This document shows, in pieces, positions 20,032-30,594 of a stretch of DNA of 64,000 nt. Position 1 is the stretch's first letter. Each line of letters begins with the position of its first letter. The translations under genes and the position numbers were made by a program. Origin of the DNA: Halorubrum alkaliphilum (GTDB lineage: Archaea; Halobacteriota; Halobacteria; Halobacteriales; Haloferacaceae). The notes beneath the pieces are model-generated. The model saw only the letters and a program-made list of their open reading frames with translations. It was not told the DNA's origin and ran no database searches. The stretch covers positions 186,001-250,000 of the forward strand of contig NZ_JAGGKQ010000001.1 in NCBI RefSeq assembly GCF_017873815.1, given 5' to 3'.

Positions 20032-21054
20032 TCACTCGTTCCGGCCGGCCTTCCGGTGTGCGGCGTAGAACAGCGGCACGAGCAGCGCACCGGCAAACCC
20101 GAGACCGAGCGCGAGCGCGCCGAGGTCCTGCGCAGTGAGTTCGCGGGCGGACGCGCCGTCCTCACTAGCCTCGGCGTCCTCGCCGCCGATGATCTCGTCA
20201 TCGATGTCACCGACCGCGACTGCTCCGAGCATGCCGACTCCGACGTGGGGCTCACAGACGTACTCGAACACGTCCCCCTCCTCGGCGCCGTCGAAGGTGT
20301 GCTCGAACGTGTGGCCCGCCTCCGCGGTCTGCTCGGACTCGAAGGCACCCCCCTCGTCGACGACGTTGTGCTCGCCACCCTCGCCGGTCCACTCCCAGAC
20401 GATCGTCGTGCCCTCGTCGATCAGCACGGCAGCGGGATCGAACAGGAGTCCGTTCTCGCCTGCGCCGACCTCGATCCGAACCTCATCCTGCCCGCGCCGG
20501 TCGTGGGTCCCGTCGTAGTTGTCCACGTCGTCGAACCATCCGCCGTAGGGGTCGCCGTTCGTGTCGTCTCCGGGCTCGACGAGGTCGTCGTCGACATCGC
20601 CGACGGCGATCGCGCCGAGCATGCCGACTCCGACGTGGGGCTCACAGACGTACTCGAACACGTCCCCCTCCTCGGCGTCGTCGAAGGTGTGCTCGAACGT
20701 GTGGCCCGCCTCCGCGGTCTGCTCGGACTCGAAGGCACCCCCCTCGTCGACGACGTTGTGCTCGCCGCCCTCGCCGGTCCACTCCCAGACGACGGTCGTC
20801 CCCTGATCGATCAGGACCGCGGCCGGACCGAACAGGAGGCCGTTCTCTCCGGCACCGACTTCGATCCGGACCTCGTCCTGGCCGCGGTAGTCGTGCGTTC
20901 CGTCGTAGTTGTCCACGTCGTCGAGCCATCCGTCGTAGGCGGCCGCAACGGTTCCGCTGGCGGCGGCGACTCCGGCCGTCGCCGCAACGCCCGCGGCCCC
21001 GGTCCGGAGGAGGCCACGACGACTCATCGACGCGTCCTGGGCGTTCGTGTTCAT
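20032..21054 (-). CDS. double-domain halocyanin (blue copper protein), membrane-anchored
   Basis: A 340-residue exported electron carrier. A Tat motif (SRRGLLRTG) precedes the signal helix. Two nearly identical plastocyanin-like domains follow, each with the copper ligands His (GGEHNVV), Cys (YVCEPHVGVGM), His and Met of that motif. A C-terminal helix (LGALALGLGFAGALLVPLF) anchors it to the membrane. The domains are 130 residues apart and nearly identical in DNA over ~300 bases, so the duplication is recent or kept uniform by gene conversion. A TTAAATAC box (21077-21084) lies about 26 bases before the ATG. Confidence 0.93.
   Translation of the reverse strand: MNTNAQDASMSRRGLLRTGAAGVAATAGVAAASGTVAAAYDGWLDDVDNYDGTHDYRGQDEVRIEVGAGENGLLFGPAAVLIDQGTTVVWEWTGEGGEHNVVDEGGAFESEQTAEAGHTFEHTFDDAEEGDVFEYVCEPHVGVGMLGAIAVGDVDDDLVEPGDDTNGDPYGGWFDDVDNYDGTHDRRGQDEVRIEVGAGENGLLFDPAAVLIDEGTTIVWEWTGEGGEHNVVDEGGAFESEQTAEAGHTFEHTFDGAEEGDVFEYVCEPHVGVGMLGAVAVGDIDDEIIGGEDAEASEDGASARELTAQDLGALALGLGFAGALLVPLFYAAHRKAGRNE
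20231..20920. repeat. tandem 390-base duplication inside the halocyanin gene
   Basis: Two direct copies, starting at about 20231 and 20621, each ~300 bases, differ at only scattered positions. They encode the two copper domains. The long identical runs at third codon positions show that the similarity is not just protein-level conservation. Confidence 0.85.
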
Positions 21055-22729: not shown

Positions 22730-23110
22730 TCACTGTCCGACCAGTTCGTCCAGTCGCTCGAAGTACGCCTCTCGGGGCACCTGATACGCCTCCCGATAGT
22801 CCACGTCGCCGTCGGCAAATCGGGCGGCGACGTCACGGGCTGCATCGACTGCCGACTCCCGCCCCTCGTACGTCTCGGCGACGGCCTCTATCTCGGGCTC
22901 CAAGAAGAGAACGACGTGCCACTGGTCGGTCGCGTACTGGCCCGCCCCCGGGCGCGACCGTCGAGAGCCATTGGTCAGATAGATCGTCGGGAGACACGCT
23001 GCTGGGAGGTCGTCGCCGTCGAACTGATCGGGCCGAAACGTGAGGATGACGCGACCGCTCGGCTCCTCGTTCCACACCCGCCAGCCGTCCGGCAACGACT
23101 CGAAGCTCAT
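22730..23110 (-). CDS. small conserved haloarchaeal protein (DUF5820-like)
   Basis: A 126-residue acidic soluble protein with LPDGWRVWNEE at the start, CLPTIYLTNGSR in the middle and DYREAYQVPREAYFERLDEL at the end. These segments resemble the haloarchaeal DUF5820 group. No catalytic motif is visible and its role is unknown. It lies between rqcH and purF on the same strand. Confidence 0.65.
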   Translation of the reverse strand: MSFESLPDGWRVWNEEPSGRVILTFRPDQFDGDDLPAACLPTIYLTNGSRRSRPGAGQYATDQWHVVLFLEPEIEAVAETYEGRESAVDAARDVAARFADGDVDYREAYQVPREAYFERLDELVGQ

Positions 23111-25540: not shown

Positions 25541-26773
25541 ATGAGCCGAAACTACGACTCGCTTCACGACCCGAACGCGGAGTACACGATGCGGGAGCTC
25601 TCCTCGGAGACGATGGGGGTAACCGGGACGCGGGGCGGCGGGCGTGATGTCGAGATCACGGACGTTCAGACGACCATGGTCGACGGCAACTTCCCGTGGA
25701 CGCTCGTGCGGGTATACACGGACGCAGGCGTCGTCGGGACCGGTGAGGCGTACTGGGGCGCGGGCGTCCCGGAGCTGATCGAGCGGATGAAGCCGTTCGT
25801 CGTCGGCGAGAACCCGCTCGACATCGACCGGCTGTACGAACACCTCATCCAGAAGATGTCCGGGGAGGGCTCGGTCGAGGGCGTGACCGTCACCGCCATC
25901 TCCGGCATCGAGGTCGCGCTCCACGACCTCGCGGGGAAGATCCTTGATGTCCCCGCCTACCAGCTGCTCGGCGGAAAGTACCGCGACAAGATGCGCGTCT
26001 ACTGTGACTGTCACACCGAGGAGGAGGCCGACCCCGAGGCGTGTGCCGACGAGGCCGAGCGCGTCGTCGACGAGCTCGGCTACGATGCGTTAAAGTTCGA
26101 CCTCGACGTCCCGTCGGGGCTCGAAAAGGACCGCGCGAACCGACACCTTCGTCCCGGCGAGATCCGCCACAAGGCGGAGATTGTCGAGAAAGTGACGGAG
26201 CGGGTGAAGGACAAAGCCGACGTTGCGTTCGACTGTCACTGGACGTTCTCCGGCGGCTCCGCGAAGCGACTCGCGGACGCGATCGAGGAGTACGACGTGT
26301 GGTGGCTCGAAGACCCCGTTCCCCCGGAGAACCTCGAGGTTCAGGAGGAAGTGACGAAGTCCACGACCACGCCGATCGCAGTCGGCGAGAACCGCTACCG
26401 CGTTACGGAGCTTCGCCGCCTCATCGAGAACCAGGCGGTCGACATCGTCGCGCCCGACCTGCCGAAAGTCGGGGGGATGCGCGAGACACGGAAGATCGCG
26501 GACGTCGCGAACCAGTACTACGTCCCGGTTGCGATGCACAACGTCGCCTCGCCGGTCGCGACGATGGCTGCCGCACACGTCGGCGCGTCCATTCCGAACT
26601 CGCTGGCGATCGAGTACCACTCGTATGAGCTCGACTGGTGGTCGGACCTCGTCGAGGAGGACGTCATCGAGGACGGCTCCATCGAGGTGCCGGAGAAGCC
26701 GGGTCTCGGCGTGACCCTCGATATGGACACCGTCGAGGCACATATGGTCGACGGCGAGACGTTGTTCGATTGA
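25541..26773 (+). CDS. aldonate dehydratase of the enolase superfamily (D-gluconate or D-xylonate dehydratase)
   Basis: A 410-residue mandelate-racemase/enolase superfamily enzyme. The N-terminal capping domain starts with LHDPNAEYTMRELSSETMG, typical of haloarchaeal gluconate and xylonate dehydratases. The barrel has KFDLDVP, the metal ligands in AFDCHW, WWLEDPVPPEN and AVGENRY, and the catalytic His in PVAMHNVASP. It dehydrates an aldonic acid to a 2-keto-3-deoxy acid in the semi-phosphorylative Entner-Doudoroff or pentose oxidation pathway. Sequence memory alone does not separate the two substrates, and no sugar genes are adjacent. Confidence 0.88.
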   Translation: MSRNYDSLHDPNAEYTMRELSSETMGVTGTRGGGRDVEITDVQTTMVDGNFPWTLVRVYTDAGVVGTGEAYWGAGVPELIERMKPFVVGENPLDIDRLYEHLIQKMSGEGSVEGVTVTAISGIEVALHDLAGKILDVPAYQLLGGKYRDKMRVYCDCHTEEEADPEACADEAERVVDELGYDALKFDLDVPSGLEKDRANRHLRPGEIRHKAEIVEKVTERVKDKADVAFDCHWTFSGGSAKRLADAIEEYDVWWLEDPVPPENLEVQEEVTKSTTTPIAVGENRYRVTELRRLIENQAVDIVAPDLPKVGGMRETRKIADVANQYYVPVAMHNVASPVATMAAAHVGASIPNSLAIEYHSYELDWWSDLVEEDVIEDGSIEVPEKPGLGVTLDMDTVEAHMVDGETLFD

Positions 26774-27033
26774 GCGGAGCGAGATCGAACTCACAAGACG
26801 AGATAGCCGAATCCCTCATCGTTTGACGAGGCGGACGCCGAACTCGAGCGCGGAGATCGCTACTTTCGCGGTGCCACGCGACACGAGCCGAACTCAGCCC
26901 CGATAAGCGAGCGTCAGCCGGGAGCGACGACACCACGACTCCCGCGGGACGGCGGAACTCCCAACGTCAACCAATAAATCCAGTTATAATTCATTTAGAA
27001 ACACATAAATTATCTTCCTGAGATTATTGCCGC

Positions 27034-29133
27034 ATGTCATCAGTTAAGAATGTGTTGGGTCGCGTCGTCGATGGGTCCGGATCCCCTCTGAGCGGACGTG
27101 TCGTCGTGGGGCGGATCGGCGGAGAATCGGACCCCATCGGCCACTGGATAACCGATGGAAGCGGTGAGTTCCCACTCGTGGCCGACGGCGGATCGACGCT
27201 CGATCCGTCCGACCTCTCGTTCACCGTTCGTGATCCGACGCGCGGGGGTGGAGCGGACCCGATCAGCGACCGAACGCTCGACGAGGACGGAGAGACGACC
27301 ACCGTGGAGTTGACGGTGGCGTCGACGAACACGCCCATTCACGGGAGCGTCGAACACCGCGGGATGAACCACGCGGCGACGACGCGGATGGGTCGGGTGC
27401 GGAGCCATCGGTTCTGTAATCAGTTTCCCGAACTCGACGTGTACGACCGAACCGACGAGTTCTTTCGAACCCTCGGCGACGCGAGCGAGACCGAGGACGG
27501 CGAGCTCGACGGGCCGATGATGGAAGCCGCCGACGACCCGGTCGGTGACGCCGACACCCCCGCAGCCTACGGGATCTTCGGGCAGTTCATCGATCACGAC
27601 ATCACCTTCGACCCGACGTCCGACGTCGACCGGCGGAACGATCCCTCGGCGTTACGGAACTTCAGAACCCCCGCGCTCGATCTCGACGCGTTGTACCGGA
27701 CCGGTCCGGGAGTGACGCCGTTCCTGTTTGACCGGGAAGACCCACACGACGCGCGCCTGGTCACCGGCTCGGCGACCGCGCCCGACACCGACGAGGGCGG
27801 ACTCTCCGGACTTCCCGGAACCGACCTCCAGCGAAACGAGCAGGGAGTGGCGCTCATCGGCGACCCGCGGAACGACGAGAACGTGCTCATCGCGCAGATC
27901 CACCTCGCGTTCGCTAACTTCAACAATCGGGTCGTCGATTACCTGACGACGGAGGCGGGTGGCGAGTTGAGACGCGAGAACGAGTCGGTCGCTGACGCGG
28001 CACATCGGCTGGTCCGGTGGCATTATCAGTGGGTCGTTCGACACGACTTCCTCGAACGAGTTTGTGACGCGTACGTCCTCGAAGACATCGAGGAGAACGG
28101 CCGCCGATTCTTCCTCCCTCCGGACAAAGACGTAGCGATTCCCGTCGAGTTCGCGGGCGCCGGGTTCCGGTTCGGTCACTCGCTCATTCGTCACGAGTTC
28201 GACATCAACGAGCAGTCCGGGAACGTCCGGATGTTCCCATCGGAGTCCGGCGAGGAACCGCATCTCCGCGGCGGCAGTCCGGTCCCCAGCCATCTCGTCG
28301 TCGACTGGACCCGCCTGCTCGACACCGGTGACGGTGACTACCAGTCCGCGCGGAAGATCATGCCGTTTCTTGCGCCGACGCTGTTCCAACTCCCGATGGA
28401 CGGGGAGGACTCCCTCGCCATGCGGAACTTCCAGCGCGCACGAGCGCTCGGACTCCCGTCGGGTCAAGACGTCGCCAAGCGAATGGGGATCGATCCCATC
28501 CGTAACGAGGGGTTCGGCGACGACGCCCCGATCATGGAGGCGTTACGGAAACACGGTCGCGGTGCGGACGGACACGCCCCGCTCTGGTACTACGTTCTCG
28601 ACGAGGCGCGCTACCAGAACGATGGCGAGCGGCTCGGCGCGGTCGGAACGCGCATCGTCGCGGAGACACTGATCGGACTCATCGAGGCCGACGAGGCCGC
28701 CTACCCGAACGCCGCGCCAGACGGGTGGGAGCCGAGTCTGCCACAGTTGACCGACACCGAGGGGTACACGCTCGCCGACCTGATCGCGTTCGGCGAGGAG
28801 GGTGCTCCGGACGGGCTCGTCATCGACGCCATCAACCCCGGACCGGGCGGCGACGGCGACCCACTTAACGAGTCAGTGACCCTGCGAAACGCGACCCGCG
28901 AAACCGTCGACCTCTCGGGATACGTGCTCGATCTCAGTGGCGGCCAGCGTGACGATCTCCCCGACACGACGCTGGCCCCGGACGCGACGGTGACGATACA
29001 CGTCGGCTCCGGAACCGATACGGATGCCGACTACTACCTCGGTCGGGAGCGGGCCGCGCTCAACGACGAGGGCGACACGGTAACCCTGCTCGATCCGGAC
29101 GGCGAGGTCAGCACTCGACGTGTCTACAGATGA
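27034..29133 (+). CDS. animal-type heme peroxidase with N-terminal beta domain and C-terminal lamin-tail domain
   Basis: A 699-residue protein without a signal peptide. Residues ~1-100 form a carboxypeptidase-regulatory/transthyretin-like beta domain. Residues ~110-590 are an animal-type (myeloperoxidase/peroxinectin superfamily) peroxidase: FGQFIDHDIT gives the distal H188, GDPRNDEN followed by ANFNNRV gives the catalytic R279 region, and FRFGHSL gives the proximal haem ligand H382. Residues ~593-699 resemble a lamin-tail domain (VTLRNATRETVDLSGYVL and following). An AT-rich promoter region lies just upstream. Its substrate is unknown; a role in peroxide or halide oxidation is inference. Confidence 0.88.
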   Translation: MSSVKNVLGRVVDGSGSPLSGRVVVGRIGGESDPIGHWITDGSGEFPLVADGGSTLDPSDLSFTVRDPTRGGGADPISDRTLDEDGETTTVELTVASTNTPIHGSVEHRGMNHAATTRMGRVRSHRFCNQFPELDVYDRTDEFFRTLGDASETEDGELDGPMMEAADDPVGDADTPAAYGIFGQFIDHDITFDPTSDVDRRNDPSALRNFRTPALDLDALYRTGPGVTPFLFDREDPHDARLVTGSATAPDTDEGGLSGLPGTDLQRNEQGVALIGDPRNDENVLIAQIHLAFANFNNRVVDYLTTEAGGELRRENESVADAAHRLVRWHYQWVVRHDFLERVCDAYVLEDIEENGRRFFLPPDKDVAIPVEFAGAGFRFGHSLIRHEFDINEQSGNVRMFPSESGEEPHLRGGSPVPSHLVVDWTRLLDTGDGDYQSARKIMPFLAPTLFQLPMDGEDSLAMRNFQRARALGLPSGQDVAKRMGIDPIRNEGFGDDAPIMEALRKHGRGADGHAPLWYYVLDEARYQNDGERLGAVGTRIVAETLIGLIEADEAAYPNAAPDGWEPSLPQLTDTEGYTLADLIAFGEEGAPDGLVIDAINPGPGGDGDPLNESVTLRNATRETVDLSGYVLDLSGGQRDDLPDTTLAPDATVTIHVGSGTDTDADYYLGRERAALNDEGDTVTLLDPDGEVSTRRVYR

Positions 29134-29371: not shown

Positions 29372-29394
29372 AGTCCGCCCTCCCCGAATTGAAC
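29372..29394 (-). repeat. direct repeat of the tRNA-Tyr 3' end (candidate att remnant)
   Basis: These 23 bases are identical to 29507-29529, which hold the 3' part of tRNA-Tyr. The copy lies 135 bases downstream of the tRNA in its direction of transcription. The ~110 bases between contain no gene. The arrangement is the same as at tRNA-Lys. The stretch between the peroxidase and the tRNA (29134-29508) holds only this repeat and the palindrome described separately. Confidence 0.75.
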
Positions 29395-29508
29395 TCGCCG
29401 AGACAGTCCGGGCGTGCGGATCGCTTCGCTCGCCGGTCCGGGCTGTGACTCGTCTGCTCAATTCGGGTCGATTGATCTTTTGACTGCTCACTTCGTTCAC
29501 AGCAAAAG

Positions 29509-29582
29509 TCCGCCCTCCCCGAATTGAACGGGGGACAAGTCGATCTACAGTCGACTGCTCTACCAGGCTGAGCTAAGGGCGG
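29509..29582 (-). tRNA. tRNA-Tyr (anticodon GTA)
   Basis: 74 bases on the minus strand. The acceptor strands CCGCCCT and AGGGCGG pair. The anticodon stem TCGAC-type arm encloses TGTAGAT, giving GTA. The T arm is CCCCG-TTCAATT-CGGGG, and the discriminator base is A. CCA is not encoded and no intron is needed. Confidence 0.95.
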
Positions 29583-29703: not shown

Positions 29704-30594
29704 ATGGGAGACGACGGGCCGGACAGACAGGCCACGTTCGGCAGCGATGGCAGCCTCGAAACCGACACCACGCCGGCGGCGACCGGCGAGAACGACTTCG
29801 GCGAGCAAACGGGCGAGAACGAGACTGACGGCGGCTACAGTCGGTACGCCGTGTCGAGCCTCCTTCAAAAGGCGGTGCGGCGCTCCGACGAGGAGGTCGC
29901 CGCGTGGGCCGCATGGGAACTCGCGCGCTCGGGTTACGCTTGGAACCTCTGGGACCGGCTGAACCTCTACGTCGTTGAGGACCTGCGCGCCGGTAGCGAG
30001 GTCGCGCTGACGATCGAGCGCTACGAGGAACTCGCCACCGAGCGCTGGGAACCCGACGAGTGGCGCGGTCGACTCTGCGCGGTCCACGGCGCGCTGGCGG
30101 CGGCCCGCGCCCGCTCGACCCGCGAGTCGTCCAACGCCGACGCCTACTTTTCCGCGGTCGCCGAGGAGCGTGCCGCCGCCCGCGAGCGCGGCGAGGAGCC
30201 CGACCACGACTTTCCGGTGGACGACCTCGAACCGGGCGGCGAGTTCGACGTCGCCCTCGACGGCCACACGGGCGAAGGCGCGCGACTCGGCCGCGACACG
30301 CGCTTTTTCAAGACCCGCGGCGCGCGAGTCGGGCCGGAGGGCGAGGACGAATCCAGCGCCCGGTGGCAACGAATCGCCATGGAACTCGACGACGAGGTGG
30401 CCTACACGCCGGCCGAGCTCGACCGCGCAGTCGAGCCGGTCGACCCGGACGATCCGTGGACGGAACCGGACGATGTCGGCGGCAATGACGAGTGCGTGAC
30501 CGGTTCCGACGGCGATATTGACGCCATCGGGGACGACGCGGACGGTACCGAGGATGCCGATCGCAGCGGCTCCCTCTCCGATTTCTCGGGGTAA
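29704..30594 (+). CDS. conserved acidic protein, possibly related to RarA/MgsA C-terminal domain
   Basis: A 296-residue soluble protein. Residues ~45-130 are helical (YSRYAVSSLLQKAVRRSDEE, then WAAWELARSGYAWNLWDRLNLYVVEDL) and recall the C-terminal helical domain of RarA/MgsA-type clamp-loader-like ATPases, but no ATPase domain is present. The middle has DAYFSAVAEERAAARERGEEPDHDFP and the last ~60 residues are acidic and probably disordered. The resemblance is weak and the function is unknown. It stands alone after tRNA-Tyr. Confidence 0.6.
   Translation: MGDDGPDRQATFGSDGSLETDTTPAATGENDFGEQTGENETDGGYSRYAVSSLLQKAVRRSDEEVAAWAAWELARSGYAWNLWDRLNLYVVEDLRAGSEVALTIERYEELATERWEPDEWRGRLCAVHGALAAARARSTRESSNADAYFSAVAEERAAARERGEEPDHDFPVDDLEPGGEFDVALDGHTGEGARLGRDTRFFKTRGARVGPEGEDESSARWQRIAMELDDEVAYTPAELDRAVEPVDPDDPWTEPDDVGGNDECVTGSDGDIDAIGDDADGTEDADRSGSLSDFSG

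Follow-up and report, generated by a model that had tools for sequence, protein, structure and literature searches.

A 64,000-nucleotide stretch of the Halorubrum alkaliphilum genome (positions 186,001 to 250,000 of contig NZ_JAGGKQ010000001.1; hereafter the window) encodes an animal-type heme peroxidase, a member of the peroxidase-cyclooxygenase superfamily, that ends in a Lamin Tail Domain (LTD). The gene, its domains, its conserved residues and its locus are directly seen in the sequence (Table 1), the predicted fold and the clade structure are shown below, and we regard this identification as confirmed. Activity, substrate, location, the direction of transfer and the roles of the terminal domains are what we infer from it, and here we consider it probable that the protein is a b-type heme peroxidase of this superfamily that resides, most likely, in the cytoplasm. 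The wider family is large, bacterial and already annotated; what is new is a haloarchaeal branch carrying the lamin-tail fusion. A literature search found no study of a haloarchaeal animal-type peroxidase, and a 2015 review of heme peroxidases, in the passages found by searching it, names archaeal members for other superfamilies and none for this one (PMC4420034).

The ATG-initiated open reading frame lies exactly where the initial annotation placed it and specifies a protein of ~75.9 kDa with an isoelectric point (pI) of 4.4 and two cysteines. Pfam detects An_peroxidase (E 4.8e-13; 48.9 bits against a curated cut-off of 25) and, at residues 591-698, LTD (E 5.4e-14; 52.9 bits against 34.3), which places the C-terminal domain proposed earlier above its threshold; NCBIfam assigns the protein to no family. 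We aligned 59 homologous rows, 40 of them bacterial and 18 haloarchaeal besides the present protein. All 59 match PF03098 (E<=0.1), and divergence from the closest orthologs at codon positions 1/2/3 (~0.25/0.20/0.44) follows the pattern of purifying selection; the gene is therefore not a chance reading frame.

The heme site is intact. Q184, D187, H188, R279, E282, H382 and R468 are invariant in 59/59 rows and N465 is kept in 58, while position 189 is Asp in 57 and Glu in 2. Among these are the residues that had been singled out from the sequence at the start, namely H188 (within FGQFIDHDITF), the arginine of GDPRNDEN (R279) and H382 (within FRFGHSL). The segment GQFIDHD at 183-189 conforms to GQxxDHD, given as the distal motif of the superfamily (PMC4420034), and the two other superfamily hallmarks, an RxxE pair (R279, E282) and a proximal histidine with an asparagine partner (H382, N465), are both present. 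As judged from sequence, the residues of the Ca2+ site (D189, T212, D216 and D218) are conserved as well.

An AlphaFold2 model built from the 59-row alignment (predicted local distance difference test [pLDDT] score 85.3; predicted template modeling [pTM] score 0.83) points to the same family. Its peroxidase part (126-589) adopts the predominantly helical peroxidase fold and is matched best by CyanoPOX of Cyanobacterium sp. TDX16 (8s6c; Z 23.4, 3.6 Å over 379 residues), then by Dictyostelium PoxA (DdPoxA, 6erc; Z 21.9) and myeloperoxidase (MPO; 21.6), followed by DUOX1 and cyclooxygenase-2. A family profile searched against solved structures recovered lactoperoxidase, eosinophil peroxidase (EPO), MPO, peroxinectin A and DUOX1 at E 3e-19 to 1e-5. 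Alignment to 8s6c, with residues counted according to PMC11776367, pairs H188 with H81, R279 with R199, E282 with E202, R379 with R291, H382 with H294, N465 with N376 and R468 with R379. The distal Ca2+ ligands of CyanoPOX (D82, T140, D144 and S146) correspond to D189, T212, D216 and D218, the last three by shared motif spacing. That H188 and H382 would face each other across a heme pocket is thus supported indirectly, through the predicted fold's match to heme-bound CyanoPOX and the alignment of these residues with H81 and H294.

A fold of this kind is also common to cyclooxygenase-2 and plant alpha-dioxygenase, and the protein might accordingly be sought among oxygenases of lipids or other organic compounds instead of peroxidases. 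We think this very improbable, as GQxxDHD, RxxE and the asparagine partner of the proximal histidine are all complete here; enzymes of the cyclooxygenase family (Family 4), by contrast, deviate at the distal motif and the proximal Asn (PMC4420034). An Mn(II)-oxidizing enzyme of the MopA type is another candidate: MopA, a heme peroxidase from bacteria, belongs to this superfamily, depends on heme and Ca2+, and does not have the Met characteristic of MPO. By its description, however, MopA is set apart at ~2,100 amino acids with a C-terminal calcium-binding domain, against 699 amino acids and a C-terminal LTD here, and we hold this assignment, too, to be very improbable (PMC6247904).

For the b-type peroxidase that we favor, a catalytic cycle can be proposed. 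Hydrogen peroxide would bind above the heme, where distal H188 and R279 would split it to yield Compound I. H382, hydrogen-bonded to N465, would serve as proximal ligand, self-processing could esterify D187 and E282 to the heme, and Ca2+ bound at D189/T212/D216/D218 would hold the distal side in place. Compound I would then be reduced by a small donor, with bromide, iodide or a phenolic or organic reductant likelier than chloride.

This ranking of donors derives from the position following the ester Glu, which is Met in MPO and forms a sulfonium link to the heme. It is Asn in 58 of the 59 rows, the present protein (N283) included, and Thr in 1. No other enzyme shares this link with MPO, which is also the one mammalian enzyme that oxidizes chloride reasonably fast near neutral pH (PMC9138014); for EPO, which lacks the link, the reaction with bromide at pH 7 outpaces that with chloride by a factor of ~6,000 (PMC10679500). 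Since the sulfonium Met is replaced by Asn, efficient production of hypochlorous acid (HOCl) is unlikely, and bromide, iodide and phenolic or organic donors appear more plausible as substrates than chloride, by analogy with the bromide preference of EPO, with the reservation that chloride at molar concentration might make up for a low rate. The best substrate of CyanoPOX in vitro is iodide (PMC11776367). Removal of hydrogen peroxide would by itself be an unlikely reason to keep the gene, since KatG, present in 18/18 Halorubrum genomes checked with or without the peroxidase gene, makes that function redundant.

MPO, lactoperoxidase and EPO are either secreted or stored in granules. No Sec- or Tat-like signal and no transmembrane segment was found in the present protein; its N-terminus is not hydrophobic, and an in-frame TGA at 27019, 15 nt upstream of the start, means that no N-terminal extension is possible and no signal was missed. 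The lack of a signal peptide, remarked on in the initial annotation, therefore holds. It is not a puzzle particular to this protein, as had been suggested, because the absence is common to the family as sampled: no obvious signal sequence was seen in the 59 homologs by a simple hydrophobicity measure, which likewise gave no indication of MPO-like secretory processing here, and an RRxF-type (Tat) motif is absent from the present protein and from the twelve most hydrophobic N-termini of the alignment. Together with the upstream stop, these observations suggest that the enzyme is most likely cytoplasmic. The "salt-in" cells of this group keep molar KCl in the cytoplasm, so that a cytoplasmic enzyme still meets molar chloride. 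HOCl made there would be self-destructive, which, with the missing sulfonium Met, argues against the earlier idea that the enzyme could make hypohalous acid from chloride.

An alternative is a secreted or surface-bound haloperoxidase that turns hypohalous acid on competitors. Some nucleases that halophiles secrete do carry LTDs (PMC4486849, PMC5118699), the protein retains the Gln associated with halide binding, and molar chloride could compensate for a slow reaction; EPO Compound I reacts with chloride at ~3e3 M-1 s-1 at pH 7 (PMC10679500). Such an enzyme would have to leave the cell by non-classical export, given the missing signals and membrane segments, and would have to work with N283 in place of the sulfonium Met; we judge it unlikely.

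Several observations weigh against a functional cytoplasmic peroxidase, in addition to the redundancy with KatG. A Ca2+ site would not normally be expected in a cytoplasmic protein. Of all Halorubrum rows, the present copy sits on the longest terminal branch (0.31), its PF03098 score is the lowest of the haloarchaeal matches, and N297 replaces the near-universal His of the HNR motif, which is found in all 18 other haloarchaeal and in 39 of the 40 bacterial rows. Coupled with A469 in place of Gly and a pseudogene remnant at the same locus of another Halorubrum genome, these features could mark a decaying, inactive copy. Yet the reading frame has no stops, its heme-site residues are intact, its codon positions are constrained, and its departures from columns conserved at >=95% number only 3, similar to other members. 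We therefore consider the present copy to be functional from its sequence, and decay to be the least probable of the explanations discussed here.

Membership in a peroxidase superfamily, as first proposed, stands; the narrower label of myeloperoxidase/peroxinectin was too specific, as the proteins nearest to it are bacterial and go by the name "heme peroxidase family protein." These proteins, from Rhizobium, Microvirga, Salinibacter, cyanobacteria and others, are ~36-44% identical over the peroxidase domain and share the heme, Ca2+ and proximal motifs as well as the lack of an obvious signal peptide, but almost all are single-domain proteins of ~430-580 amino acids. CyanoPOX, the best solved relative (sequence E 7e-6), has the same heme-site residues, with the ester-link Asp and Glu kept, but is only ~19% identical in the structural alignment and shorter (523 residues in the structure). 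MPO, lactoperoxidase and EPO resemble the protein in fold (Z 19-21.6) and catalytic residues; MPO differs in its Met sulfonium link. None of these three enzymes is known to have an LTD or the N-terminal beta domain described below. DdPoxA, of the peroxinectin type, shares the fold, but the present protein has no signal peptide, and the integrin-binding KGD or RGD motif of peroxinectins (Family 3) is absent from its sequence.

In a sample of one genome per species the protein has >500 relatives, most of those listed being bacterial; several are named "heme peroxidase family protein" in RefSeq. PF03098 occurs in 22/391 genomes of the class and in 6/393 of a wider phylum sample, there only in genomes of the same order. 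The peroxidase-domain tree places the haloarchaeal rows together on one side of a branch (99/99), which suggests a single acquisition by haloarchaea from a mainly bacterial family; as the tree is unrooted, transfer in this direction is likely but not proven. A shared acquisition with proteins of Symploca, which have the beta domain in common, gave p 0.078 in an approximately unbiased (AU) test, a value that neither establishes nor rejects it.

Within Halorubrum, the full gene is found in 11/52 genomes and is thus accessory, at one conserved place. Most of the carriers examined have it flanked by a TRAM/sugar-acid dehydratase/PHP group on one side and a gene for a pyridoxal phosphate (PLP) enzyme on the other, and several non-carriers have the same neighbors without it. 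One Halorubrum genome without the gene retains, at the same locus, a frameshifted remnant of residues 1-110 (L164 7936-8266). These same-locus absences and the broken remnant indicate that the gene was lost at least once.

The N-terminal beta domain of the initial annotation is real as a prediction: in the AlphaFold2 model the first ~103 residues form a beta sandwich (strands 6-95; pLDDT 81.6). Foldseek/VIA-align comparisons give Z 6-8 to intradiol dioxygenase, transthyretin, hydroxyisourate (HIU) hydrolase and the transthyretin-like (TTL) domain of carboxypeptidase D, matches of the common transthyretin (TTR)/CnaB type that support assignment to a class only. Pfam has no match for this domain in the present protein and recognizes CarboxypepD_reg in 9 homologs. 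Other haloarchaea, and two cyanobacteria of the genus Symploca, have related N-terminal domains, a distribution that needs three changes on the tree.

The LTD has a simpler distribution. It is present in 11 of the 59 rows, all haloarchaeal, and in 0/40 bacterial rows; those that carry it form one clade (100/100) and require one change, so that the lamin tail was gained once, inside the haloarchaeal clade. The layout is rare, as first noted, without being unique, since the 10 further carriers in Halorubrum give full-length matches and those scanned also have the LTD. Sequence searches with the LTD alone found no solved relative. The sole PHROGs match was of the LTD region to a phage tail family, and in a phage collection that region had no match. 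We found no sign of a role in defence, PADLOC returning only a weak nuclease-plus-LTD match (E 0.0015).

Elsewhere in haloarchaea, LTDs occur on nucleases and ComA-like proteins (PMC5118699), which share the C-terminal domain family, differ in the catalytic domain and, in those described, carry a lipobox or secretion signals. LTDs have also been associated with the binding of DNA at high salt (PMC4486849). The beta sandwich and the lamin tail of the peroxidase probably serve in binding or tethering, and the partner of the tail may be DNA, some other polyanion or a membrane. The history we propose would comprise one acquisition of the haloarchaeal branch, addition of the lamin tail once inside it, and later loss in some lineages. 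A more elaborate scenario, in which a cytoplasmic archaeal haloperoxidase in molar halide is tethered by its LTD to DNA or another polymer for the localized making or removal of reactive halogen, such as controlled bromination, seems to us quite unlikely.

Table 1. Coordinates and basis of the peroxidase features and adjacent elements in the window
Feature	Position	Strand	Basis
Whole peroxidase gene	27034..29133	+	Open reading frame, 699 aa
N-terminal transthyretin/CarboxypepD_reg-like beta domain (residues 1-102)	27034..27339	+	AlphaFold2 model, fold matches
Animal-type heme peroxidase domain (residues 103-590)	27340..28803	+	PF03098, fold match to 8s6c
C-terminal Lamin Tail Domain (residues 591-699)	28804..29130	+	PF00932
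Distal motif Q184-F-I-D187-H188-D189 (halide Gln, ester Asp, distal His, Ca Asp)	27583..27600	+	Conservation
Calcium loop T212-P-A-L-D216-L-D218 (cf. CyanoPOX T140/W142/D144/S146)	27667..27687	+	Conserved
R279-x-x-E282 (catalytic Arg, ester Glu), then N283 where myeloperoxidase has Met	27868..27879	+	Conservation
Proximal heme ligand H382	28177..28179	+	Invariant in 59; aligned to H294 of 8s6c
N465-F-Q-R468 (Asn H-bonded to proximal His; propionate Arg)	28426..28437	+	Aligned to N376/R379 of 8s6c
AT-rich upstream element with conserved TTCATTTA, likely archaeal promoter region (putative function)	26981..27010	+	10 Halorubrum upstream regions aligned
Enolase-superfamily sugar-acid dehydratase (gluconate/galactonate dehydratase-like), upstream neighbor	25541..26773	+	51/52 Halorubrum genomes

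Scans of the surrounding DNA for sigma-70 promoters and terminators returned nothing, as expected for an archaeon. Most of the carriers examined have the dehydratase gene near that of the peroxidase; an operon or functional link between them is unsupported, as a divergent PHP-domain gene separates them in several carriers and nearly all Halorubrum genomes have the dehydratase. The TRAM, reductase and DUF255 genes of the window, at 45.7-49.6 kb, are in reversed order relative to other Halorubrum, which a ~20 kb inversion between the dehydratase and TRAM genes (25541-49553) would explain. Downstream of the peroxidase gene, the 3' end of the tRNA-Tyr gene is accompanied, 135 bp away, by an exact 23-bp copy (29372-29394 and 29507-29529), which resembles the scar of an integrated-element attachment site. 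Further downstream is a gene (29704-30594, forward strand) for an acidic 296-residue protein with no Pfam match, a 45% identical relative of which is encoded near the peroxidase gene of another haloarchaeal genome (L125 5510-6289). On the reverse strand, the window also encodes a protein with two plastocyanin/azurin-type copper-domain stretches (20035-21054) and a member of the uncharacterized family DUF5820 (22730-23110).

Seen within its family, the protein loses most of the surprise of a signal-less HOCl maker, and the interest that is left lies in the salt-adapted branch, its substrate and the function of its tail. The clade represents salt-adapted relatives of lactoperoxidase (pI 4.4 in the present protein) that may be stable at high salt, and it raises the question of how a type of enzyme known for making hypohalous acids operates inside chloride-filled cells. 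Its fusion to a lamin tail provides a natural test of the role of LTDs in prokaryotes.
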